The notes beneath the pieces were generated by a model that was given only the letters and a program-made list of their open reading frames with translations, made no database searches and was not told where the DNA came from. From positions 1 through 64,000 of IMG/VR virus record IMGVR_UViG_3300035034_000924: a DNA stretch of 64,000 nucleotides; one strand, given 5' to 3'. Positions within the stretch are counted from its first letter, which is position 1; every line of letters begins with the position of its first letter. Positions 42,170 to 62,842 of this stretch are shown here, piece after piece. Both the position numbers and the translations under genes were made by a program. The DNA is from a virus.

Positions 42170-42192
42170 AGTAGGTCACTAAACAACCCACT
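42170..42192 (+). repeat. 23-bp direct repeat, left copy
   Basis: A 23-bp sequence, AGTAGGTCACTAAAC followed by AACCCACT, recurs exactly at 53380-53402 in the same orientation. Its GGTCAC(T/C)AAAC core resembles the iterons at 46593-46650. Confidence 0.85.
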
Positions 42193-42260: not shown

Positions 42261-42289
42261 TTGCAATGAAAGTTTTACAAGCATATAGT
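42261..42289 (+). promoter_or_regulatory. Candidate promoter for replication module
   Basis: TTGCAA (42261-42266), 17-bp spacer, TATAGT (42284-42289), about 40 bp upstream of the AAA+ gene start at 42331. Confidence 0.55.
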
Positions 42290-42330
42290 TGCCTTCCCAT
42301 GTCGGGAAATGCTTAAGGAGAAATAAACGC

Positions 42331-44100
42331 ATGCTAAAGAATTTAATAACAGACGCCGATTCGGAGCGCAGCTTTCGCACACGGTTGCTCAACACTCTGG
42401 CCTCAGGGGCGGGGCTTATACACGTACGTAGCTCGGAGGTAATGAGAACGTTGGCCAGTATCCGCCGTAACATTATCTTAGAGGGGCACGAATACAACGA
42501 GTGGGATATCTGCAACGGCACTTGCCCTTACAGCACGGAAGACCTTCACACTCTTAATAAGGATGGAGACAAGAATCCGCAGATACCAGTTCTGCTCGAC
42601 ACCATTTGGGCTAAACACATTTGGTGGATCAAAGAAGCCAGTGACAGCCAGCGCGACTCGTACTATGTATACGTAATCACGCAAGCCGCCAGCATGGTCA
42701 ACAACAACCCTTATGCTACGCAGCGTTTTCTGGAGCTAAACAACGGGCTGCCAGAATCTACGGTCAGGGTAATAATGTTGACGGAAGACATCCCGTTGCC
42801 TGAGAGTTGCGCCAGTAACTTCATTACACTCGACTTCGACAGACCCGGCCATGGAGAGCTTCTGCATCGGTTAGAAACCAACCTGCATGATTACGCTACG
42901 CCGGAATCGTTAGATGTAGAAGAAGAAGACTACGAGCGAATCGCAGTAGCTGCCTCTGGTATGACGATTGGCGAATTCGACTTCGCGGTATCCAGCGCCA
43001 TCGTTAACAAGTTGTACGAAGAGTCTGAAGGCGATGAAAGCCCAGTGGTTACTACTAAGGATCTTATTGAAGGCGTTCATATGGGTAAGACCGAGGCCAT
43101 CAAAAAGAACGACATCCTAGAGCTGCTACACGTCGGGGAGATGAACGAGGTCGGCGGTATGCACAACGCGAAGAAATGGGTGGAGATGCGTTCGTACACC
43201 TACACTCCTGAGTTCTTGAAGTTCGGCGGGCAACCACCAAAAGGTATGGTATCGGTCGGTGTCCCCGGCACAGGTAAATCTTTGCTGGCTAAAGCCGTCG
43301 CAAGCGAGTTCGGTATCCCCTGCGTACGTATGGACTTCGGCTCAATCTTCAATGCCTTGATCGGTTCATCCGAAGAGCGGATACGCAAAGCTTTGAAGTT
43401 AACGGAAGCAATGTCTCCCTGCGTTTTGTTCGTAGACGAAATTGACAAGGCCTTGGGTGGCCTAGGCGGGTCAGGAGACTCCGGTACATCTATGCGGGTA
43501 TTCGGGACCTTCTTGACATGGTTACAGGAACACAAGTCTCCGGTGTTCACTATCGTTACTGCCAACAATGTAACGGGCCTTCCCCCTGAGCTATTACGGC
43601 GCGGTCGCTTCGATGCGATCTTTGCCACCGTTTTACCAAACCAGTACGAGCGCGAAGATGTGCTAGCCATCCACCTGCAAAAGCGGGGTCATAGCATCGA
43701 AGACTTCAGCGATTATGAAATTGCCGTGTTCCTTAAGCAGACCGATAAGTTCGTCCCTGCGGAAATCGAAGCGATTGTTCAGGATGGTCTCGTACTGGCC
43801 TTTAACCGAGCGGTAGCCGATGAGCAGGAACCCGAGCTGCTTATGGATGACCTACTCGAAGCCATCGCTGCAGTAGTACCGCTGTCCAAGTCACATAAGA
43901 GCGCTATTCAAGCCATGGTCACATGGGCAGAGGATAATGCTATGCCCGCTTCCCTTAGTGAGAAACAGTACGAAGAGCTGAGGGGCGCTCCTAAGGGCAC
44001 TAAACCTAGGGGACAGGCAAAGGCCCGCCCCCGTCGCAAAACCACCCGTACGAGCAATATAACGAGCATCAAGCGGACACGTAAAAAGGAAGAGGAGTAG
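42331..44100 (+). CDS. AAA+ ATPase (Ycf46/FtsH-type AAA core), 589 aa
   Basis: The AAA core has Walker A GVPGTGKS (residues 310-317), Walker B CVLFVDEID (Asp369, Glu370), a sensor TANNVTGLPPELLRRGRFDA and arginine-finger region. An N-terminal domain of about 300 residues is like that of Ycf46 proteins. A Lys/Arg-rich C-terminal tail follows. I chose ATG 42331 behind AAGGAG over the upstream in-frame ATG. DUF1257 and DUF2997 genes follow, the known association of this ATPase; the biochemical role is unknown. Confidence 0.85.
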   Translation: MLKNLITDADSERSFRTRLLNTLASGAGLIHVRSSEVMRTLASIRRNIILEGHEYNEWDICNGTCPYSTEDLHTLNKDGDKNPQIPVLLDTIWAKHIWWIKEASDSQRDSYYVYVITQAASMVNNNPYATQRFLELNNGLPESTVRVIMLTEDIPLPESCASNFITLDFDRPGHGELLHRLETNLHDYATPESLDVEEEDYERIAVAASGMTIGEFDFAVSSAIVNKLYEESEGDESPVVTTKDLIEGVHMGKTEAIKKNDILELLHVGEMNEVGGMHNAKKWVEMRSYTYTPEFLKFGGQPPKGMVSVGVPGTGKSLLAKAVASEFGIPCVRMDFGSIFNALIGSSEERIRKALKLTEAMSPCVLFVDEIDKALGGLGGSGDSGTSMRVFGTFLTWLQEHKSPVFTIVTANNVTGLPPELLRRGRFDAIFATVLPNQYEREDVLAIHLQKRGHSIEDFSDYEIAVFLKQTDKFVPAEIEAIVQDGLVLAFNRAVADEQEPELLMDDLLEAIAAVVPLSKSHKSAIQAMVTWAEDNAMPASLSEKQYEELRGAPKGTKPRGQAKARPRRKTTRTSNITSIKRTRKKEEE

Positions 44101-44905: not shown

Positions 44906-45388
44906 ATGAGCCACACTAGCTCTATTTCAGCAATCAAGATTGTTGATATCAATGCCCTTAAGCAGGCTGTCCAAGACCTTAATGGTATGGGCATCACGGT
45001 AACTCTGGTAGAAAACAAAAAGCCAGTAGCTTACTCGCACGACCAGCCCGGTATGTCGGAAGTTGCGCCGTATTGTCTGGAAATCAAAGAGGCCACGTAC
45101 GACGTCGGCATCTACGACATTGGCGCAGGTCAGTTTGAAGCCCGCACCGATTTCTATAACGGCTCGGTTGCTGCAGCGCTGGGCGCGGATCGAAACGCTA
45201 TGAACGCTATCGACCGCAGCACGGCGGAAGGCAAGGCTGAGATGGAATACGCGCAGCTGGGTAAGCTTTACCAGCGGTACTCTATCAACGCTACCAAGAA
45301 TCAGGCCGCACGACAGGGTGGGAACATCCAAGAAATTGTCCAAGCGGATGGTTCGGTTCAGTTGGTAATCACGGGGATGGCTGCGTAA
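44906..45388 (+). CDS. DUF1257 (Ycf35-like) protein, 160 aa
   Basis: MSHTSSISAIKIVDINALKQ opens as DUF1257 proteins do, continuing with a helix, a beta strand and a Lys/Gln-rich middle; a NAIDRSTAEGKAEMEYAQLG then LYQRYSINATKNQA stretch is the typical C-terminal region. Ycf35-family proteins accompany Ycf46-type AAA ATPases in cyanobacteria, plastids and phages. The reaction is unknown. Strong AGGAG before the ATG. Confidence 0.8.
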   Translation: MSHTSSISAIKIVDINALKQAVQDLNGMGITVTLVENKKPVAYSHDQPGMSEVAPYCLEIKEATYDVGIYDIGAGQFEARTDFYNGSVAAALGADRNAMNAIDRSTAEGKAEMEYAQLGKLYQRYSINATKNQAARQGGNIQEIVQADGSVQLVITGMAA

Positions 45389-45404
45389 GCGTCCCCTAAA
45401 TTCA

Positions 45405-45420
45405 TTGCAAACGTTTGCAG
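45405..45420. repeat. Dispersed palindrome site 14
   Basis: TTGCAAACGTTTGCAG, one mismatch; perfect 12-bp core; intergenic and overlapping the AGGAGAAA ribosome-binding site of the gene at 45430. Confidence 0.9.
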
Positions 45421-45429
45421 GAGAAAGTA

Positions 45430-45648
45430 ATGGAAAACAGAATGACAGATGACCAATCAGTGGTTGTCGTTTGTCACCCAACGGGTAGGGTATCGGTCGA
45501 GGCCAATGGCTTCCAAGGCGTAGGTTGCACAGAAGCAACTGAGCAGATTGAGATTGTTCTGGGTAGCAAAACAAAGCGGGAGCCAAAGCCTGAGTACTAT
45601 CAGTCGCCAGCGGCCAATATCGCAAACTCGGTAAAACAGGACTTCTAA
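45430..45648 (+). CDS. DUF2997-like protein, 72 aa
   Basis: VVVVCHPTGRVSVEANGFQG followed by VGCTEATEQIEIVLGSKT matches the DUF2997 pattern (I/V strand, DG turn, G-x-x-G-x-x-C, helix ending in LG). The protein is one of the small partners of the Ycf46/DUF1257 module. ATG 45430 follows AGGAGAAA, which overlaps the palindrome copy, so a protein bound there could affect expression of this gene. Confidence 0.7.
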   Translation: MENRMTDDQSVVVVCHPTGRVSVEANGFQGVGCTEATEQIEIVLGSKTKREPKPEYYQSPAANIANSVKQDF

Positions 45649-46052: not shown

Positions 46053-46559
46053 ATGGCAGAGGTGCGGGCGGGGGTAGCTCCCCGTCCAATCCTATTACCA
46101 CCATCCAATAACTACACTAAGGAACGGTGCATAGCCATGGCGGCAGAGAACCAATCAATAGCCCGCCTATACTTTCCCGTACTCAGGACAATAGTAAGGC
46201 ACTGGGTAGGACGGGTTACACCAACAGAACACCAGATACTGCTTTTCATTAACGAGAGGACACTGCGCTATGGCAAGGCAGCAGAGTACATTCGCCTATC
46301 CCATATGACCGAAGGCATTGTCGGATCGAACGATCAAGTAATCGTGTCAAAGCTGGGTTTCAAACGATCAGCTATTAAGAAAGCGGTAGTAGATCTAGAC
46401 AGGAACAACCTAATCAACACCTACTACGAAGGCAGGGGGCACTGGCAAGGTGTCAAAATGTCGTTGAATGTAGAGCTGCTTCTGAGCGTAGCGAACGACG
46501 TAGATGTCCATGTAGGCGCGAGAAGAAGGGTACGTACTAGGACAAAAAGCGAGGATTAG
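46053..46559 (+). CDS. O-like replication initiator, winged-helix, 168 aa
   Basis: The central region resembles the lambda O N-terminal winged helix: TEHQILLFINERTLRYGK, then LSHMTEG, and KLGFKRSAIKKAVVDLDRNNLI as the recognition helix-wing, with a basic C-terminus (GARRRVRTRTKSED). Such domains bind origin iterons. Three iterons lie directly after its stop, in the next gene's 5' end. It probably acts with the helicase loader and DnaB-type helicase encoded downstream. Confidence 0.7.
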   Translation: MAEVRAGVAPRPILLPPSNNYTKERCIAMAAENQSIARLYFPVLRTIVRHWVGRVTPTEHQILLFINERTLRYGKAAEYIRLSHMTEGIVGSNDQVIVSKLGFKRSAIKKAVVDLDRNNLINTYYEGRGHWQGVKMSLNVELLLSVANDVDVHVGARRRVRTRTKSED

Positions 46560-47417
46560 ATGGCCAAATTACCTGTACCAAAGTCCCGTAAAGTGGGTCA
46601 CCAGACGGCAGAAGTGGGTCACGAGACGACCGGGGGTGGGTCACCAAACGACCCCATAAAACATACTCATAATAACAAGCGGATAGTAACAAGCAGAAGG
46701 TTGCGTCCCGAAGAGGAACGCGACTCTGTGAAACTTGAGAATATCGAGGCTACACTTACTAGACGTTCGGAAGAACGGATCAGCAAAAAGCTGAAGTCTG
46801 CGAAAGGCAAAAAGTTCCCCTCCTACGATGAAGCACTTACGATGTGGCTAGTGGCTTACCGGGATGCTACTGATTGCATACCTACCACAGGCGTGACTAC
46901 CAAAGAGTGGGGTATGTTCCGCCAAGTTTCTATTAAACGACCTGACTTTGACGTCCGAGAATTCTTTGCAGACATTTGCAATAACTGGGACTACATCGGC
47001 ACCTCTACGCTGAAGTTTGTGGATGACTACCCAGAGCTGCCCTCGCTGTCTTTGGTATTCCGTATGTCGAATTACTTTGCAGAGGCAGTCGCAAGCTTAC
47101 GCGGGTTCAGCGGCAAGCAGGAGACGTTCAAGAAGCGCATGATTGAAGCCAGTACTAAGCAGCGGGTTAAGGAAAACGCCCCCACAGCCACCTCTGAGCG
47201 TCACAGAGGACTCTTTCTTGACACGGAGCTGTCTAATCTACAAGATACGAACTTCGCTCTAGGTGATTACTTACTAGCAGCGAAGAAGGACCACGCCGAC
47301 ATATACATCTGGGCCGGAATACAAACAGGATGGATTCGCACCATGGAAACTGTCCCCGCTTCCGAACTGGATAAAGACAGGCAACAGATTATAGATTTCA
47401 TTGAGGCAATAAAGTGA
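46560..47417 (+). CDS. Replication-module protein with iterons in its 5' end, 285 aa
   Basis: The N-terminus (VGHQTAEVGHETTGGGSPND) is low-complexity and encodes the iterons, like the linker of O-type proteins. The remainder is a helical soluble domain (LTMWLVAYRDATDCIPTTGV; KEWGMFRQVSIKRPDFD) with no visible ATPase motif. It may be a separated C-terminal domain of an initiator that recruits the loader. A diverged palindrome copy lies at 46966-46981. Confidence 0.5.
   Translation: MAKLPVPKSRKVGHQTAEVGHETTGGGSPNDPIKHTHNNKRIVTSRRLRPEEERDSVKLENIEATLTRRSEERISKKLKSAKGKKFPSYDEALTMWLVAYRDATDCIPTTGVTTKEWGMFRQVSIKRPDFDVREFFADICNNWDYIGTSTLKFVDDYPELPSLSLVFRMSNYFAEAVASLRGFSGKQETFKKRMIEASTKQRVKENAPTATSERHRGLFLDTELSNLQDTNFALGDYLLAAKKDHADIYIWAGIQTGWIRTMETVPASELDKDRQQIIDFIEAIK
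46593..46680 (+). other. Candidate iteron origin of replication
   Basis: Three repeats: GTGGGTCACCAGACG (46593), GTGGGTCACGAGACG (46614) and GTGGGTCACCAAACG (46636), spaced 21 and 22 bp. A 25-bp AT-rich stretch (46656-46680, 20 of 25 A/T) follows, suited to strand opening. The third iteron is in a different reading frame from the first two, showing DNA-level conservation. The lambda origin has the same layout. Confidence 0.65.
46966..46981. repeat. Dispersed palindrome site 15
   Basis: TTGCAGACATTTGCAA, two mismatches; coding. Confidence 0.6.
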
Positions 47418-48010
47418 GCGACGAAGACAAAATTATCACATCAATCGCAGAAGGCGCAGAGCGGGTCAACAGTGACCGCATCGCCAAGATGATGGATGAG
47501 TCTCATGTCGCTATCCACGCACAGAAAATGTCTTTGCCTGAAATAGGCATGGATGATCTTCGGGCTTACATCACTGCCAAAGGGTTCCATGAAAAAGATG
47601 TGATGCTGGCCACTAACTTTGGGTCTAAAGCAAAAGCAAGAGAACTGCGGTTGGCAATCCACGTTCTCGCAAAAGAATTGCTGCTTGCCAAACAGGCAGT
47701 TTACGTTACTAATTTGTCCGCCTTGATTGCTGCAGTAGGCAGAGCGAGTCAGTGGGACGAGGGAGTATGGCTTGACGAGTATTCACACATACTTGTTTGT
47801 AACTTTTTCAGCAAAGGTGCCGAGTCACCTATGAGCGCTTCGCAACGGCAACAAGTCACCGACTATCTTCTTGAAAGATATGACTCTGGGCTCCACACAC
47901 ATGTGCAAATTCTTGACTGCACAGAGACAGAGGTTCAGAAGATCCAAGATTGGTACGGCTCTGCGTTCTGGAAAATGTACAAAGGACACCAATCCATATT
48001 CTCCTACTAA
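47414..48010 (+). CDS. Helicase loader-like protein lacking Walker A, 198 aa
   Basis: GTG start overlapping the preceding stop (4 bp). The C-terminal half (VYVTNLSALIAAVGRASQWD to HILVCNFFSKGAESPMSASQ and a QQVTDYLLERYDSGLHTHV helix) resembles the DnaC/IstB AAA+ region around Walker B, but no GxxxxGK(S/T) is present. It sits between the initiator genes and the DnaB-type helicase, the usual loader position. The loader role is inferred. Confidence 0.45.
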   Translation: MSDEDKIITSIAEGAERVNSDRIAKMMDESHVAIHAQKMSLPEIGMDDLRAYITAKGFHEKDVMLATNFGSKAKARELRLAIHVLAKELLLAKQAVYVTNLSALIAAVGRASQWDEGVWLDEYSHILVCNFFSKGAESPMSASQRQQVTDYLLERYDSGLHTHVQILDCTETEVQKIQDWYGSAFWKMYKGHQSIFSY

Positions 48011-48022
48011 TCAGGAGATACA

Positions 48023-49297
48023 GTGAGCAAAGGCTTAGATTTTTTATCTGCTATTTGCATTAACGGCAATGCAAGTGAACTCAGAAGATTTGGTGAAGAG
48101 TATTACGTTGACGAAGACGAACTCACCGCATGGAGATACTGCCTAAGGCACGTTCAGCGATTCGGCGTCTTACCTACGCTGGAGACTTTGGAGGAAGAGA
48201 CAGGGGTAGCGTTCGCTTACTGCGAGGATTCCGTTGAGTACTACAGCCAAGAGGTACTGGACCGTAAATTCTACAACGATGCCCGCACTAACTATAACGA
48301 ACTCCGTGTAGCACTCAGCCACCAAGACGTAGACGCCAGTAGAACAGCAATCCAATCATTGGCTGCCGTATCCAGACAGACAGACCAAACCCGAGACCTA
48401 GTGTCGATCAGAGAAGCGGGCGCAATGGCGCTGGAACGCTACGACGTCAACCATAGAATCGACGGACTGATCGGGATACCGACAGGCTGGCACAGCCTAG
48501 ACCAAGACAGCTCAGGGTATCAGCCGGGCGACTTGAATCTCTGGGCGGCGAGACCGGGTGAAGGTAAAACATGGCTGTTAGTCAAACAGGCGCGGGCAGC
48601 GTACAGCGCAGGAGCAAACCTTGTGATGGCGACTATGGAGATGCCGATCAACGCCATGGCAGCTAGGTACTTCTCTCTGGCAGCAGGAGTTAACCCCACC
48701 CAACTCAGACGAGGCACTCTGTCCACTTACGATGAGCAGAGGCTGCGGGAGACCATACGAGAGTATGACCGTGACGAAAGGTTCTTTATGTATCAGGGCA
48801 ATATGGGTCAGGGGGTGGAAGGGCTAGAAGCTATCATCGCAGAGCGGAGACCCGACATAGTTTTTATTGACGGTGTCTACCTCATGCGATCCGGCAGGAC
48901 CAGAAACAACGCACAGAAAAACGATATAGTATCTGACGTCCTTGACGATCTTAAGCAGACTGCTTTGCACAGAAACACCTCGATTGTATGCACCAGCCAG
49001 TTCAACCGCGAGGCTGGGGCGAAAGGCAGGAGAGGCGGGCTAGAGACACTAGGCTTCACGGACGCATTCTCTCAGCACTGTTCTTTGATATACGCGATCA
49101 AGAACCCCACAGGCCGAATGGTGGACAGGCAAACTAAAATAATCGAAACCATAAAAGGTCGAGAGGGCGAAAGTGTTAGATGCGCCATTAACTACAAATT
49201 CAACCCCCTGCGTTTCGATGAGATACCACTGCACCTAATAGATACAGAAGACGCACAATCAGACGAACCCCTGAACCTCGATTGGATGAGAGACTAA
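48023..49297 (+). CDS. DnaB-type replicative helicase, 424 aa
   Basis: An N-terminal helical domain and a RecA-like motor: IPTGWHSLDQDSSGYQPGDL is the typical domain entry; Walker A ARPGEGKT (176-183), Walker B VFIDG (Asp283), TSQFNREAGAKG near motif H4. It would unwind DNA at the fork as a ring. The GTG start is 12 bp after the upstream gene's stop. It is followed directly by the polymerase. Confidence 0.85.
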   Translation: MSKGLDFLSAICINGNASELRRFGEEYYVDEDELTAWRYCLRHVQRFGVLPTLETLEEETGVAFAYCEDSVEYYSQEVLDRKFYNDARTNYNELRVALSHQDVDASRTAIQSLAAVSRQTDQTRDLVSIREAGAMALERYDVNHRIDGLIGIPTGWHSLDQDSSGYQPGDLNLWAARPGEGKTWLLVKQARAAYSAGANLVMATMEMPINAMAARYFSLAAGVNPTQLRRGTLSTYDEQRLRETIREYDRDERFFMYQGNMGQGVEGLEAIIAERRPDIVFIDGVYLMRSGRTRNNAQKNDIVSDVLDDLKQTALHRNTSIVCTSQFNREAGAKGRRGGLETLGFTDAFSQHCSLIYAIKNPTGRMVDRQTKIIETIKGREGESVRCAINYKFNPLRFDEIPLHLIDTEDAQSDEPLNLDWMRD

Positions 49298-52200
49298 ATG
49301 GCCAAGCTGCCTAAATTTAGAGAAGAGTTCCCTTGTCTGGCATGTCCGCTAGGTGAGCAAGGCTGCGCCAAGATCAAGGCCAGCGGTTCCCGAAGAGCCA
49401 AGATCCTAGTCGTTACTCACGGGCCTCACGACGGAAACGCTGCCCACTACAAAGAGCATATGACCAGAGACGCTCTAGCGGTGTTCAAGAGAGCCATGCA
49501 CGAGAACGGTTTTACCGATTCAGACTTCGTGTTCGTATCTTCGGTACGGTGCTACTACGACAGAGACCTCAGGCCTACGAAAGAAAAGACGCACATAGCT
49601 GAGCAGTGCCGAGAATACTTGCTACGCACCATTGACCAGATGAAGCCAGACATAATTGTACCGTTAGGTGTCGAGGCGGCTAGGTCGGTTTACGGCAAAG
49701 CAAAAAAGATAACCAAGATACGCGGGGCAGTGGAATGGGATGCCGACTACAACGCGCACATATTCCCTATGATTGACCCGCAGATGGTATCCAACTATCC
49801 ACAGAACTGGGGGACATTCAAAGCAGACGCCAGAAGCTTGCGTAGGCTGATGGACAACGGTTTCAACGAAGCAGATGTTGCTAGGCAGGGTCTGGGCGAA
49901 TACGAAATAGTCGATGACCTACAATTCCTGATTGATAAAAACCCAGAAGTATTGGTGCTCGATACGGAGACCGAGGGCAAACGTTGGTCAGAGCGAGATA
50001 AACGGTTATTGACCATTCAGCTAACTGACGAGGCGGGCAAGGGGTATATGGTCGTGTGGGACCACCCAGAAGCACCCGCCAATAGGCAGACAAAGCGTAG
50101 GCTGAGAAGACAATTCAAAGAGCTACTCGAAAGGGAAGAACTCACCGTAGTCGGGCAGAACCTGAAGTACGACGCGCTTTGGATGTATACCAGAGTCGGG
50201 GTCCGGTTCCGAATAGGTGATGACACGCTCATGCTGGCAGCAATCCTAGATGAGAATAACCTGAACAAAGACCTATCCTCACTGACAAAAATGTTTGTGC
50301 CGGAGATGGCGGGCTACGATGATCTGTTCAACAGGACGTACGACAAGTCTAGGATGCAAGACGTACCGATAGCCGAGATACTGAACTATGGTTGCGGGGA
50401 CTCGGATGCTTGCAAACGTTTGCACGAATATTTCTGGGGACAGATAGAGACAGACCCGCAACTGGTTACGCACTATGACGAAGTATCTTTGCCGGGACTG
50501 AACGCGTTCGTCTCTACTGAGATGCGGGGGCTCAAGGTTAACTTAGCGGGGCTGGATGATCTTAGGACTACCTTGGCAGAGTATGTCGATGAGCTGGAAG
50601 AGAGCCTGCTCACACAAATACCTAGAAGAATAAAGCGTGACCACCTAGAAGCGGGCAAAGAGATAAAACTATCAAGGCCTGACCTACTAAGAGACATACT
50701 GTTCCATCATCCAGCAGGGTTTAACCTAAGACCCAGAGTGTTCACCAAGACCACGGCTAAGCTAGCGCCAGAACTGCAAGTACCTTCCACCAGTAGTAAA
50801 GACCACCTACCGTTTTTCTTTGACGATTGCCCGTTCACAGAAGAGCTGGCCGAGTACCAAAAACTTAGCAGGTTGCTGGGTACAAACATTGAGAAGTTTC
50901 AAGAGAACTACATGATCGGGGATATGGTTTACCCGTCCTATCAACTGCACGTCACGGTAACGGGGCGAACATCGTGCCTCAGAGAAGATCAGTTGGTGGA
51001 TACACGCCACGGTAAGAAGCGTGCAGACAACATTGAAGTAGGGGACGAAGTATTCACACACATGGGTAGGTTCCGCCCCGTTACAAAGCTGTTCCGAAAA
51101 CCAGTTACGCCTATGGTGGATGTAAGGTTTAGTAACGGGGAAGTCTTGCATGTCACACTAGATCATATTGTCTTGCTTAACTCTGGTGAGTTTGTTACCG
51201 TTAGGTCAATCATCCAGCAAGGGATAGACTATGCCCAGTGTCAGCAAGAAGCATATGCAGGACGAAGAGCTAGTTTTGCAGGTAGCAGAAACATACCGCA
51301 CATCTATGATGACTGTGCAGGAAGTAGCGGACAGGTATCATGTGAACCACGTAACAGCGCGAGCCATGATTCGGAAGCACATATCAGACGAGGACTTCAA
51401 GAAGTTCGCGCACTACAGATATCACGACAGCAAGCTGGGGAAAAAGAACCATCAGTTTGGCAATCAGCGGGCATCAGATTGCGAGGATGGCAGGGGCTAC
51501 CTTACGAGACTAGTAGAGGGCAAGAGATACTTTGTGCATCGGATAGTATTCGCGGGGGGTATGGGCATGAAGCCTCACGAATTGCCAGAGTCGATGATTG
51601 TACATCACATAGACGGGAACCCGAAGAACAACAGTCTCGACAACCTTGCACTGACAACGCGGAGGGGGTATTCGGGTATACACGACCGATACCTGTTTCC
51701 TTCCGAAGAGTTTCAATTGAGAGCATTGACTATTCGGGAAGCTATCGAGTTTATGACTTCGAGGTAGAGGAAGATCACTCGTATCTGGCGGGTGGCGTAT
51801 TCTCCCATAACTCACAAGACCCTAATGGCCAGAACTTCCCCAAACGTGGCAGGTTCGCTAAAGCGTACCGAAAGCTCTTTGTACCGAACGAAGGTTACTT
51901 CATGCTGGAGGCTGACTTGTCTCAGGCAGAGCTGCGTATATCCGCAGACATGTCGAACGACCAAGAGATGATACGCATCTACAATAGTCCGGGCGGGGAC
52001 ATCCACAAAACAACTGCCCTGATCGTAACAGGGCTATCGGCAGAGCAGTTTGCGCAACTTGATAGGACAGAACAATCACTGGCTAGGTTTAAAGCCAAGG
52101 CCGTGAACTTCGGGTTCATCTACGGTATGGGCTGGAGAAAGTTCATCACGTACGCGAAGACCCAATACGGCGTAGAGTTTACTGACAGAGAAGCGCAGCG

Positions 52201-52810
52201 GATACGGGACCAGTTCTTCCAGAGATACCCTGCACTAGTACGATGGCACAAAGCTATGCGTGAGTATGCAAGGACGCATGGTTATGTGCGGTCTTACAGC
52301 GGGCGAGTACGCCACCTACCTATGATCTACTCGCGGGAAGAGTACATCCGAAACGAAGCTGAGAGACAGGCAATCAATAGCCCCGTTCAGGAGTTCGCCT
52401 CGTCTATCGGGGTCATGGCGCTGAGTAACATTGACCAAGATGTAAACCCTGATTACCTAGCAATTACTGGTTTCGTGCACGATGCTATCTACGCCCTTGT
52501 CCCGTACCAATACGCGGAGTGGGGAGCGAAGACGCTCAAGCATTATATGGAGACTGTAGATATCGAAGGTATATTTAACCGCAGACTCAAAGTACCTATT
52601 CTGGCGGACGTATCTATCGGTTTGAATGGTGGTGAGCAATTCGAGATGGCGGGCCTAGATCTAGATACAGAATACAACTGGGAGTCTCAGCTTGAATATG
52701 AACCGGAAGATGGCTTCCCGTTCGAGATGACAGAGCAGCTGACCCCACCAGACGATGGCTTGATAGAGCTGCCTAGGCACTTAGTAAGACCATCGCTACT
52801 AGCCCCGTGA
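49298..52810 (+). CDS. DNA polymerase, family A, with UDG-like N-terminus and intein, 1,170 aa precursor
   Basis: Domains in order: a uracil-DNA-glycosylase-like region (about 10-155, ACPLGEQGC; SSVRCYYD; IIVPLGVEAA), a DnaQ-like 3'-5' exonuclease (DTETEG, Asp222/Glu224), the polA palm and fingers split by an intein. Motif A is EADLSQAELR (Asp873), motif B KAVNFGFIYG, motif C HDA (His1061-Asp1062-Ala1063; HDE is usual). The intein (residues 560-838) sits between the two Ser of TGRTS/SQDPNGQN. After splicing the polymerase would be 891 aa. The 837-bp insert also carries a separate HNH gene in another frame. Confidence 0.85.
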   Translation: MAKLPKFREEFPCLACPLGEQGCAKIKASGSRRAKILVVTHGPHDGNAAHYKEHMTRDALAVFKRAMHENGFTDSDFVFVSSVRCYYDRDLRPTKEKTHIAEQCREYLLRTIDQMKPDIIVPLGVEAARSVYGKAKKITKIRGAVEWDADYNAHIFPMIDPQMVSNYPQNWGTFKADARSLRRLMDNGFNEADVARQGLGEYEIVDDLQFLIDKNPEVLVLDTETEGKRWSERDKRLLTIQLTDEAGKGYMVVWDHPEAPANRQTKRRLRRQFKELLEREELTVVGQNLKYDALWMYTRVGVRFRIGDDTLMLAAILDENNLNKDLSSLTKMFVPEMAGYDDLFNRTYDKSRMQDVPIAEILNYGCGDSDACKRLHEYFWGQIETDPQLVTHYDEVSLPGLNAFVSTEMRGLKVNLAGLDDLRTTLAEYVDELEESLLTQIPRRIKRDHLEAGKEIKLSRPDLLRDILFHHPAGFNLRPRVFTKTTAKLAPELQVPSTSSKDHLPFFFDDCPFTEELAEYQKLSRLLGTNIEKFQENYMIGDMVYPSYQLHVTVTGRTSCLREDQLVDTRHGKKRADNIEVGDEVFTHMGRFRPVTKLFRKPVTPMVDVRFSNGEVLHVTLDHIVLLNSGEFVTVRSIIQQGIDYAQCQQEAYAGRRASFAGSRNIPHIYDDCAGSSGQVSCEPRNSASHDSEAHIRRGLQEVRALQISRQQAGEKEPSVWQSAGIRLRGWQGLPYETSRGQEILCASDSIRGGYGHEASRIARVDDCTSHRREPEEQQSRQPCTDNAEGVFGYTRPIPVSFRRVSIESIDYSGSYRVYDFEVEEDHSYLAGGVFSHNSQDPNGQNFPKRGRFAKAYRKLFVPNEGYFMLEADLSQAELRISADMSNDQEMIRIYNSPGGDIHKTTALIVTGLSAEQFAQLDRTEQSLARFKAKAVNFGFIYGMGWRKFITYAKTQYGVEFTDREAQRIRDQFFQRYPALVRWHKAMREYARTHGYVRSYSGRVRHLPMIYSREEYIRNEAERQAINSPVQEFASSIGVMALSNIDQDVNPDYLAITGFVHDAIYALVPYQYAEWGAKTLKHYMETVDIEGIFNRRLKVPILADVSIGLNGGEQFEMAGLDLDTEYNWESQLEYEPEDGFPFEMTEQLTPPDDGLIELPRHLVRPSLLAP
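50410..50425. repeat. Dispersed palindrome site 16
   Basis: TTGCAAACGTTTGCAC, one mismatch; perfect 12-bp core; coding (CKRLH), inside the polymerase's exonuclease-domain region. Confidence 0.85.
50975..51811 (+). mobile_element. Intein in DNA polymerase with nested HNH gene
   Basis: It begins with Cys560 (block A, CLREDQLVDTRHGKKR and NIEVGDEVF), contains the TxxH block B (TLDH, residues 620-623), and ends with block F/G (YRVYDFEVEEDHSYLAGG, then HN838) before extein Ser839. All splicing blocks are intact. The stretch between blocks B and F reads as low-quality sequence in the polymerase frame but as an HNH endonuclease in the +1 frame. Confidence 0.85.
51231..51767 (+). CDS. HNH homing endonuclease nested out of frame in intein, 178 aa
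   Basis: The +1 frame inside the intein has its own ATG 51231 behind AAGGG. An N-terminal HTH (TVQEVADRYHVNHVTARAMI, residues 28-47) precedes an HNH nuclease domain: RIVFAGGMGMKPHELPESMI, VHHIDGNPKNN (His125/126, Asn133/134), DNLALTTRRGYSGIH with His151. It would cut intein-less alleles. Its stop (51765-51767) lies within the codons of intein block F, so both proteins are encoded by the same bases there. Confidence 0.85.
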   Translation: MPSVSKKHMQDEELVLQVAETYRTSMMTVQEVADRYHVNHVTARAMIRKHISDEDFKKFAHYRYHDSKLGKKNHQFGNQRASDCEDGRGYLTRLVEGKRYFVHRIVFAGGMGMKPHELPESMIVHHIDGNPKNNSLDNLALTTRRGYSGIHDRYLFPSEEFQLRALTIREAIEFMTSR

Positions 52811-52889: not shown

Positions 52890-53384
52890 ATGGCTGAGAC
52901 AAGAAAACGACAGGTTGGCAGACGGGCAAGCAGATCTAGTGATCGAGAGGCCGTTACACCAAAAGGCAGTAAGCCTAGCTCTAGTTCCGCCAAGCGGGTA
53001 AAAGAACAACGGCTGGAAGAACTCGCCCGAGGCATCGACACTAGACTAGTGGAGATTGAGCTTCGTAACAAAGAGATGGCTGGCATGCACACCGAAGCCG
53101 CCGAACTGATGGCCGAACTTAAGCTTGAGAAGTTTGATGTGCCTAGGGTAGGCGAACACCTCTTCGTTAAGAAAAAAGCTTCAGACAAATCTACCATAGA
53201 TCCACGGGCTTACTACGGGAAGGTAGGTAAGGACGATTTCTATGCGTCCGTTTCGGTCACTAAGAAAAATGCCAAAGAGCACCTACCTGAAAAAGTCATC
53301 GACCAGATCAGCACCAAGGTAGTCGGTGAATGGACAGGACCCCATTATTCCTTCAAGGCGGCAGGCTCTAAAAAAGGTAAGTAG
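52890..53384 (+). CDS. Hypothetical protein, 164 aa
   Basis: A basic Ser/Arg/Lys-rich N-terminus (about 1-40), a charged coiled-coil (EELARGIDTRLVEIELRNKE, about 43-75) and a beta/helix C-terminus (RAYYGKVGKDDFYASVSVTK). Probably nucleic-acid- or replisome-associated by position after polymerase. No enzymatic motif. It ends just upstream of a 23-bp repeat and a terminator. Confidence 0.5.
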   Translation: MAETRKRQVGRRASRSSDREAVTPKGSKPSSSSAKRVKEQRLEELARGIDTRLVEIELRNKEMAGMHTEAAELMAELKLEKFDVPRVGEHLFVKKKASDKSTIDPRAYYGKVGKDDFYASVSVTKKNAKEHLPEKVIDQISTKVVGEWTGPHYSFKAAGSKKGK

Positions 53385-53402
53385 GTCACTAAACAACCCA
53401 CT
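53380..53402 (+). repeat. 23-bp direct repeat, right copy
   Basis: Identical to 42170-42192 and in the same orientation; overlaps the last codon (stop) of the gene ending at 53384. It precedes a terminator. Confidence 0.85.
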
Positions 53403-61618: not shown

Positions 61619-62842
61619 ATGAAAGCAGGTGATAGAGTAAAGTTCTTGAAGTTCCAATCGGCAGACGACCTGCCCGAAAACTCGGAGCTTCTGGTTGAAG
61701 GCGAAAAGTACACGGTCAGCAGCATTACTAAAGGTAAAGGCGAAGACCTAGACCTCTACCATGTGATTGCCGAAGATGAGAACGGCGACACCTACGAAGT
61801 CGAAGTTTTCGAAGACGAAGTAGAAGCGGTAGCCAAAGGCAAGGCTGCAGCGAAATCGAAGGCCGCGCCAAAAGCAAAAGCAAAAGCCGCACCCAAGGCA
61901 AAGGCCGCCCCTAAGTCTAAGGCCAAAGCGAAAGCCAAAGCCGAGACGGAAGAAGAAGAAACCGAAGAAGAAGAAACCGAAGACGAAGAAACCCAAACCG
62001 AGCATGTCGAGCCGGAACTGAAAGGCATCACTGTACTTAGTGATGAACAGCAGGACGCAGACATCGCCAGTGCCGTAGCCGACACCGATGACCTTGTCGG
62101 GCTTACCATTGAATACGCCGAAGATGCAGCACAGTCTCAGTGGGCGTTGGGCGGGTTGCTTTACTACTGCCAAGCAGAGAAAGTTCACCGAGCGTACGAT
62201 GAAGGCCAGTACGATAAAGTCGGTGGATGGCGCGAGTTCTGCGAAGAAGTCCTTTCGGTTAACTACCGCACCGCGATGGACCTTGTTAACGTCTACTCTC
62301 GTTACTGTGCAGTTGGCTGGGGTATTGAAGAATACAAGCGCACCAGTGCGACGGCAGCAGTAGAGCTTCAAAGAATGCTTCCAGATCTGGATAGCGATGC
62401 TGCAGATGATCTGCTTCATGCAGCAGAAGAACAGAGCTTTGCCGAGTTCAAGGAAACTCTTAAAGCCACGAAGGCGACAGGCGACGGTGGAACCAAACCG
62501 ATCACTGCAGTCAACATGATGCGGTTCGCTTTCAAGGCGAAAGAATCCGAAGGCAAGAAGATCGCCAACATCATCGAGCTGGCCAAAGAGCACACTGGAA
62601 TCAGTAACACCGATGAGCTGTTTGCTACCATCTTCCTTGAGTGGGCGAACAACGAGCTGGACCGCGATGCTCTGAGCAAGATGACCCGCAGTAAGGCTAA
62701 GGCGTCCAACACCAAAGCCGCCGCGAAAGCTAAGGCAGCACCGAAGGCCAAAGCTAAAGCAGCACCGAAAGCTAAAGCGAACGCTGCACCGAAGGCGAAA
62801 GCTAAGGCCACTCCAAAGGCCAAAGCCAAAGCTAAGAAGTAG
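61619..62842 (+). CDS. Histone-H1-like Lys/Ala/Pro-rich protein, 407 aa
   Basis: Three parts. An N-terminal SH3/KOW-like domain (about 1-70). A Lys/Ala/Pro repeat region (about 72-110, KAAPKAKAK type) and an acidic stretch. A middle helical domain (about 160-340, ALGGLLYYCQAEKVHRAYDE; GWREFCEEVLSVNYRTAMDL) resembling DUF3102-type proteins. The C-terminal 45 residues repeat KAAPKAKAK. Such tails bind DNA non-specifically, as in histone H1 and AlgP. Strong promoter upstream and terminator downstream suggest it is expressed alone and strongly. Confidence 0.65.
   Translation: MKAGDRVKFLKFQSADDLPENSELLVEGEKYTVSSITKGKGEDLDLYHVIAEDENGDTYEVEVFEDEVEAVAKGKAAAKSKAAPKAKAKAAPKAKAAPKSKAKAKAKAETEEEETEEEETEDEETQTEHVEPELKGITVLSDEQQDADIASAVADTDDLVGLTIEYAEDAAQSQWALGGLLYYCQAEKVHRAYDEGQYDKVGGWREFCEEVLSVNYRTAMDLVNVYSRYCAVGWGIEEYKRTSATAAVELQRMLPDLDSDAADDLLHAAEEQSFAEFKETLKATKATGDGGTKPITAVNMMRFAFKAKESEGKKIANIIELAKEHTGISNTDELFATIFLEWANNELDRDALSKMTRSKAKASNTKAAAKAKAAPKAKAKAAPKAKANAAPKAKAKATPKAKAKAKK

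Follow-up and report, generated by a model that had tools for sequence, protein, structure and literature searches.

The closest described counterpart of the locus considered here is the replication origin of phage lambda. This origin lies in the middle of the initiator gene O and contains four iterons spaced 20, 24, and 23 bp apart. Each lambda iteron is a 19-bp imperfect inverted repeat, and the iterons adjoin an A/T-rich region. Lambda makes its initiator in one piece, whereas profile matches indicate that the initiator at the present locus is encoded as two open reading frames (ORFs). The locus lies in a stretch of 64,000 nucleotides, here called the window, which is part of an 85,398-bp virus record (IMGVR_UViG_3300035034_000924). 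We consider it probable (at roughly 0.8) that the repeats and A/T-rich tract described below form a lambda-type theta origin whose initiator is made as two cooperating halves.

The array consists of three exact 15-bp repeats on the plus strand: iteron 1 (GTGGGTCACCAGACG, 46593..46607), iteron 2 (GTGGGTCACGAGACG, 46614..46628), and iteron 3 (GTGGGTCACCAAACG, 46636..46650). The spacing of 21 and 22 bp, or about two helical turns, is as reported in the first-pass annotation. The window holds no further perfect copy, and 13 sites match the iteron with three or fewer mismatches, where 3.7 +/- 2.1 would be expected. When the whole record is scanned for three copies at 18-26 bp spacing, only this array and a protein-coding repeat at 62.7 kb are returned; 30 first-order Markov shuffles of the record yielded no three-copy array. 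The repeat at 62.7 kb (62723-62800) is an in-frame 18/24-bp tandem repeat (around GCxAAAGCTAAAG) and probably encodes a lysine/alanine-rich protein repeat. Within the ORF that carries them, the three iterons have codon offsets of 0, 0, and 1, so the frame shift of the third copy noted earlier is real. Their dyad symmetry is imperfect, with GGTC-N7-GACC present in copies 2 and 3 only; in the sister locus (L037) the iteron dyad is clear (CTATCC-N7-GGATAG).

A candidate unwinding element, an A/T-rich tract with 22 A/T in 30 positions (46656..46685), begins 5 bp past the third repeat. The first-pass annotation had described a 25-bp tract with 20 A/T after the iterons; a tract is present, and the best one checked (46656-46680) has 19. 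Because about 25 places in the record hold a 25-mer with at least 20 A/T, the tract is weak by itself, and as only a modest feature it counts against the origin reading. It gains weight because an A/T peak occupies the same place, beside the iterons, across 25 relatives. The GC skew of the record rises steadily, with no switch at the array, which likewise counts against that reading.

The iterons fall between the two ORFs' main domains. ORF1 (46053..46559, plus strand) encodes the N-terminal half of an O-type initiator, with a predicted winged-helix DNA-binding domain, and ends in TAG. ORF2 (46560..47417, plus strand) encodes the linker and the C-terminal half of the same initiator, predicted to be helical. 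A profile built from 42 single-ORF relatives, for which bits are used in place of E-values from a very small set, scores 68 bits with ORF1 (N-terminal half), 66 bits with ORF2 (C-terminal half), and 143 bits with the two joined. The iterons had been assigned to the gene that follows the initiator gene instead of to that gene itself; by profile and frame, this second ORF supplies the C-terminal half of the initiator. This puts the origin in the linker of the initiator, as in lambda, between domains recognized by homology in a gene that here comprises two ORFs.

The AF2 model was computed on the read-through of ORF1-ORF2, with the stop read as Gln and 33 aligned rows. It contains a confident winged-helix domain (most blocks of residues 31-150 at pLDDT 83-97), a low-confidence linker at about residues 155-217, which is the iteron-encoding part, and a helical C-terminal part; the single sequence of ORF1 gave a useless model (pLDDT 34). 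The predicted winged helix, of the type found N-terminally in O, DnaD, and RepA initiators, matches the initiator chains 4pt7, 4pql, and 5kbj and DnaD 2v79 at Z 7.4-8.3. Many transcription factors also match, so that plasmid initiators and DnaD are only some among the DNA-binding proteins found, and a Foldseek search with the two-domain model gave no PDB match at E <= 0.001. In Pfam, ORF1 scores 12.8 bits against Phage_rep_O (PF04492), under the gathering cut-off of 28.7; the homologue in Aeromonas phage HJ05 scores 24.0 bits, and five of the 33 aligned proteins match at E <= 0.01. No PHROGs profile matches ORF1 or the joined protein itself, and ten of the 33 aligned relatives match the O-like phrog_678; ORF1 of Agrobacterium phage JP1 matches at 5e-8. 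Relatives of ORF1-ORF2 match O-like and DnaD-like initiation families, and with the predicted fold these matches agree with the earlier description of an O-like winged-helix initiator.

The surrounding genes form a replication module. Upstream is an AAA ATPase close to phrog_8638 (42289-44100, plus strand), followed by small genes (44906-45648). Genes at the same positions in Rhizobium phage RHph_I4 are annotated DUF1257 and DUF2997, and the ATPase and small genes therefore appear to form a conserved cassette of unknown role. Downstream, a 198-aa protein (47414..48010, plus strand) is by synteny the positional counterpart of a gene of about 170-220 aa upstream of dnaB in relatives; it has no family match above cut-off, and its position alone marks it as a possible helicase loader. 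It is followed by a DnaB-like replicative helicase (48023..49297, plus strand; DnaB_C 2.8e-27, phrog_19 1.4e-44), a DNA polymerase A ORF (49298-52810) that contains an intein and whose N-terminal domain is uracil-DNA-glycosylase-like, a DnaG-like primase (53461), and a protein whose JP1 relative is annotated as an ssDNA-binding protein (54791). A separate frame within the polymerase ORF (51231-51767) apparently encodes an HNH-type homing endonuclease. Elsewhere in the record, a 946-aa ORF (L005:2716-5556) has a PhoH-like match in its N-terminal part and terminase large subunit matches in its C-terminal part, and is possibly intein-bearing or a fusion.

Relatives were reached via DnaB, the SSB-like gene, and PolA, because tblastn in phages and in IMG/VR found no close relatives of ORF1 or ORF2. 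An alignment of seven DnaB proteins was too divergent to serve as a search query. The PolA alignment brought in 79 IMG/VR loci, and the comparison set comprises 50 distinct loci with enough DNA upstream of DnaB. The same gene order recurs in phages of Pseudomonas, Aeromonas, Rhizobium, Rhodobacter, and Agrobacterium, and more loosely in a Vibrio phage. The annotated record stretches of these phages (about 75-110 kb) have no origin marked.

Arrays were sought in the 50 loci as two 16-mers spaced 19-26 bp apart and agreeing at 14 or more positions, comparing the 6 kb upstream of DnaB with the sequence from DnaB onwards. Half of the loci (25/50, window included) have an array 1.1-1.9 kb upstream of the DnaB-like helicase gene, with differing sequences and a spacing of 21-25 bp. 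Array density reaches 0.72 per kb in the 1000-1500 bin and 0.28 per kb in the 1500-2000 bin, whereas the remaining upstream bins have 0.00-0.08 per kb and the DNA downstream has 0.03; no array appeared in shuffled sequence. Many of the arrays are dyads, and most have copies out of frame. In these loci, selected for arrays and not for A/T, A/T content is 59% and then 68% in the two 20-bp bins nearest the array on its 3' side, compared with 46% over the loci. The other 25 loci have no array at 1.1-1.9 kb at the threshold used, although some have weaker ones. In HJ05 the array lies 2.4 kb upstream of DnaB because an extra gene follows its initiator. The array-less loci and the score of ORF1 under the Phage_rep_O cut-off count against the origin reading. 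Nevertheless, comparison with relatives supports that reading well: synteny, co-located repeats, and the 3' A/T peak all favor a lambda-like origin beside an O-like winged-helix initiator, as first proposed.

The division of the initiator is not peculiar to the window. A single ORF, mostly of 400-500 aa, stands in place of ORF1 and ORF2 in 42 of the 50 loci; HJ05 also has one ORF, with its extra gene behind it. The initiator is split, with both halves matching the profile, in the window, L037, JP1 (L011), L047, and L048, and is probably split in L049 and L060, where the N-terminal half is weak. Split initiators thus occur in about seven of the 50 loci, with five changes of state on a quick DnaB+PolA tree that places the window and L037 as sisters. 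The split position varies among loci. The iterons lie within the start of the C-terminal ORF in the window and within the N-terminal ORF in L047, whereas in JP1 and L037 they lie between the ORFs and are wholly non-coding, the frame being closed by several stops.

These arrangements bear on the alternative that best survives, namely that the origin is as described and read-through of the TAG yields a full-length initiator, leaving ORF2 without a separate role. The TAG directly abuts the ATG of ORF2 in the same frame, so that a stop alone separates the halves, and the two joined align with relatives over their full length. ORF2 nevertheless has its own start signals: a Shine-Dalgarno-like GAGG, the TAG, and the ATG lie together at 46551..46562 (plus strand), with a duplex energy of -7.8 kcal/mol. 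Moreover, TAG terminates 19 of the 53 long plus-strand ORFs and is therefore an ordinary stop in this record; stop-codon reassignment was rejected, and a scan of 84 kb found no tRNA gene. Since the halves in L037 and JP1 are separated by non-coding DNA with several stops, read-through is an unlikely account of the window, and production of two separate halves is preferred.

A further argument for separate halves comes from the unsplit relatives. The ORF2 ATG aligns to a short motif, approximately M-x-L-x-x-P-K, that follows the winged helix of single-ORF initiators, and Met occupies this position in 26 of 32 aligned unsplit relatives, a count that allowed five alignment columns and so slightly favors the finding. 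Anti-Shine-Dalgarno pairing before the aligned Met averages -5.8 kcal/mol, compared with -2.1 before other internal Mets and -4.3 at the first starts of the DnaB ORFs, and peaks at the ATG itself; the Mann-Whitney p value for aligned versus other internal Mets (5e-8) is optimistic because the loci share ancestry. With random synonymous codons at these sites the mean is only -4.2, and not one of 300 draws is as strong as the observed value. Only 17 of the 26 single sites exceed their median synonymous draw, so part of the Shine-Dalgarno signal comes from the residues themselves. Among relatives outside the alignment, the mean is -5.0 at nine sites (the best Met being taken where several stood near) versus -2.6 for other Mets; good sites occur in PA_L9, HJ05, RHph_I4, and L059, and none in L056. 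In the series L013-L071, most single-ORF initiators, lying upstream of a gene of about 190 aa and dnaB, have a Met at a fixed position past the winged helix, mostly preceded by a Shine-Dalgarno-like sequence.

The prevalence of this Met, mostly with a Shine-Dalgarno-like sequence, suggests a conserved internal translation start in single-ORF initiators. A separate C-terminal half is likely made in many of these phages, and the split genes would then keep the C-terminal half and lose the full-length form. More broadly, a wide phage group may make its O-type initiator as two products, one full-length or N-terminal and the other the C-terminal half; on present evidence this generalization is as apt to fail as to hold. 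It places the conserved internal start between the DNA-binding domain and the origin. The window would then be a case in which just the two halves are left, with an initiator that acts as a complex of two parts brought together at the origin. The open-access literature searched yielded no paper on an internal start in lambda O and none on split O initiators.

Iteron-like sequences also occur elsewhere in the record. Three 23-bp near-palindromes, AGTAGGTCAC(T/C)AAAC(A/G)ACCCACT, lie at 42170, 53380, and 70737 (L005:6737). The first (AGTAGGTCACTAAACAACCCACT, 42170..42192, plus strand) is upstream of the AAA ATPase gene, the second exact copy (53380..53402, plus strand) is at the end of the ORF preceding the primase gene, and the third is upstream of a 211-aa gene. 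When its flanks are included, iteron 3 agrees with the dyad at 20 of 23 positions. No consistent sigma-70 promoter match accompanies the dyads. A search of the record for a single-subunit RNA polymerase as a promoter source for the motif gave no match, and since the control search was likewise without a match, this result is no evidence of absence.

The dyads leave room for a regulatory role, and in the strongest form of this idea the repeats would be operators for a phage transcription regulator whose other sites are 42170, 53380, and 70737, with no origin present. The dyads do share the iteron core, two of them agree at all 23 bp, and each stands ahead of a plus-strand gene. Yet the array lies inside a gene, its direct repeats are helically spaced, and an A/T tract comes after them; the co-located arrays of L037, JP1, and HJ05, searched whole, come without such dyads, extra copies of their own iterons being at chance level beyond the arrays. 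In iteron plasmids the initiator also has operators, and one Rep protein may use inverted-repeat sites as well as direct-repeat iterons. If the initiator had a dual role, array and dyads alike would be explained; the dyads may be operators for the initiator or extra binding sites, and a purely regulatory array is distinctly improbable. Least probable is that the linker merely carries a coding repeat or an RNA element here, without any DNA-binding role: iterons 1 and 2 share a frame, and the peptides they encode are similar (VGHQT and VGHET), but the third copy is out of frame, the L037 and JP1 arrays are non-coding, and the region's RNA folds no better than shuffles (z = 0.94).

For an origin with a divided initiator, a scheme can be proposed from the sequence and the lambda parallel. 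The winged-helix protein encoded by ORF1 would bind the iterons, probably as dimers, and stress the DNA so that the A/T tract 3' of the iterons opens. Ribosomes would terminate and re-initiate at TAG|ATG, where ORF2 has its own ribosome-binding site, and so produce the ORF2 product as a polypeptide of its own. This C-terminal half would join the complex without a covalent link to its partner and help to bring the phage DnaB-like helicase, for which the 198-aa protein would perhaps act as loader.

With this locus, a group of phages of about 75-110 kb gains a likely origin, together with a reusable pattern for finding others, in which spacing and position are kept while the iterons are free to vary in sequence. 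Should the internal start prove real, a C-terminal half on its own would take part in O-type initiation in these phages, a feature not expected from work on lambda. Naturally split initiators also provide ready-separated domains for asking which half opens the DNA and which brings the helicase.

Compared with known systems, the origin is of a known kind and the initiator gene is unusual. As in the lambda ori/O region (and that of Stx phages), tandem iterons at 20-24 bp spacing lie in the linker-coding part of the initiator and are followed by an A/T-rich tract; the dyad symmetry of the lambda iterons is only imperfectly present in the window. The predicted initiator resembles lambda O in its winged-helix-type N-terminal half, its separate C-terminal half, and its place just upstream of helicase-loading functions. 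In contrast to lambda, a TAG|ATG junction divides the initiator into two ORFs, the iterons are unrelated in sequence and number three rather than four, and the phage encodes its own DnaB-like helicase; lambda O, for its part, has no comparable internal start before its iterons. Samunavirus (PA_L9, SM1, and PaMx31), HJ05, and related phages share the gene order, the place of the array, and a related initiator, which in these phages is a single ORF; their origins are predicted here. The JP1 initiator is split, and its array is non-coding. Two products of one plasmid initiator gene, Rep and Rep', are described for pIGRK (PMC6854812); relative to that plasmid, the window differs in having an O-type initiator, non-overlapping products, and an origin just after the second start. 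What is new among these systems is the splitting of the initiator, the wholly non-coding iterons of two loci, and the conserved signal that suggests an internal start.
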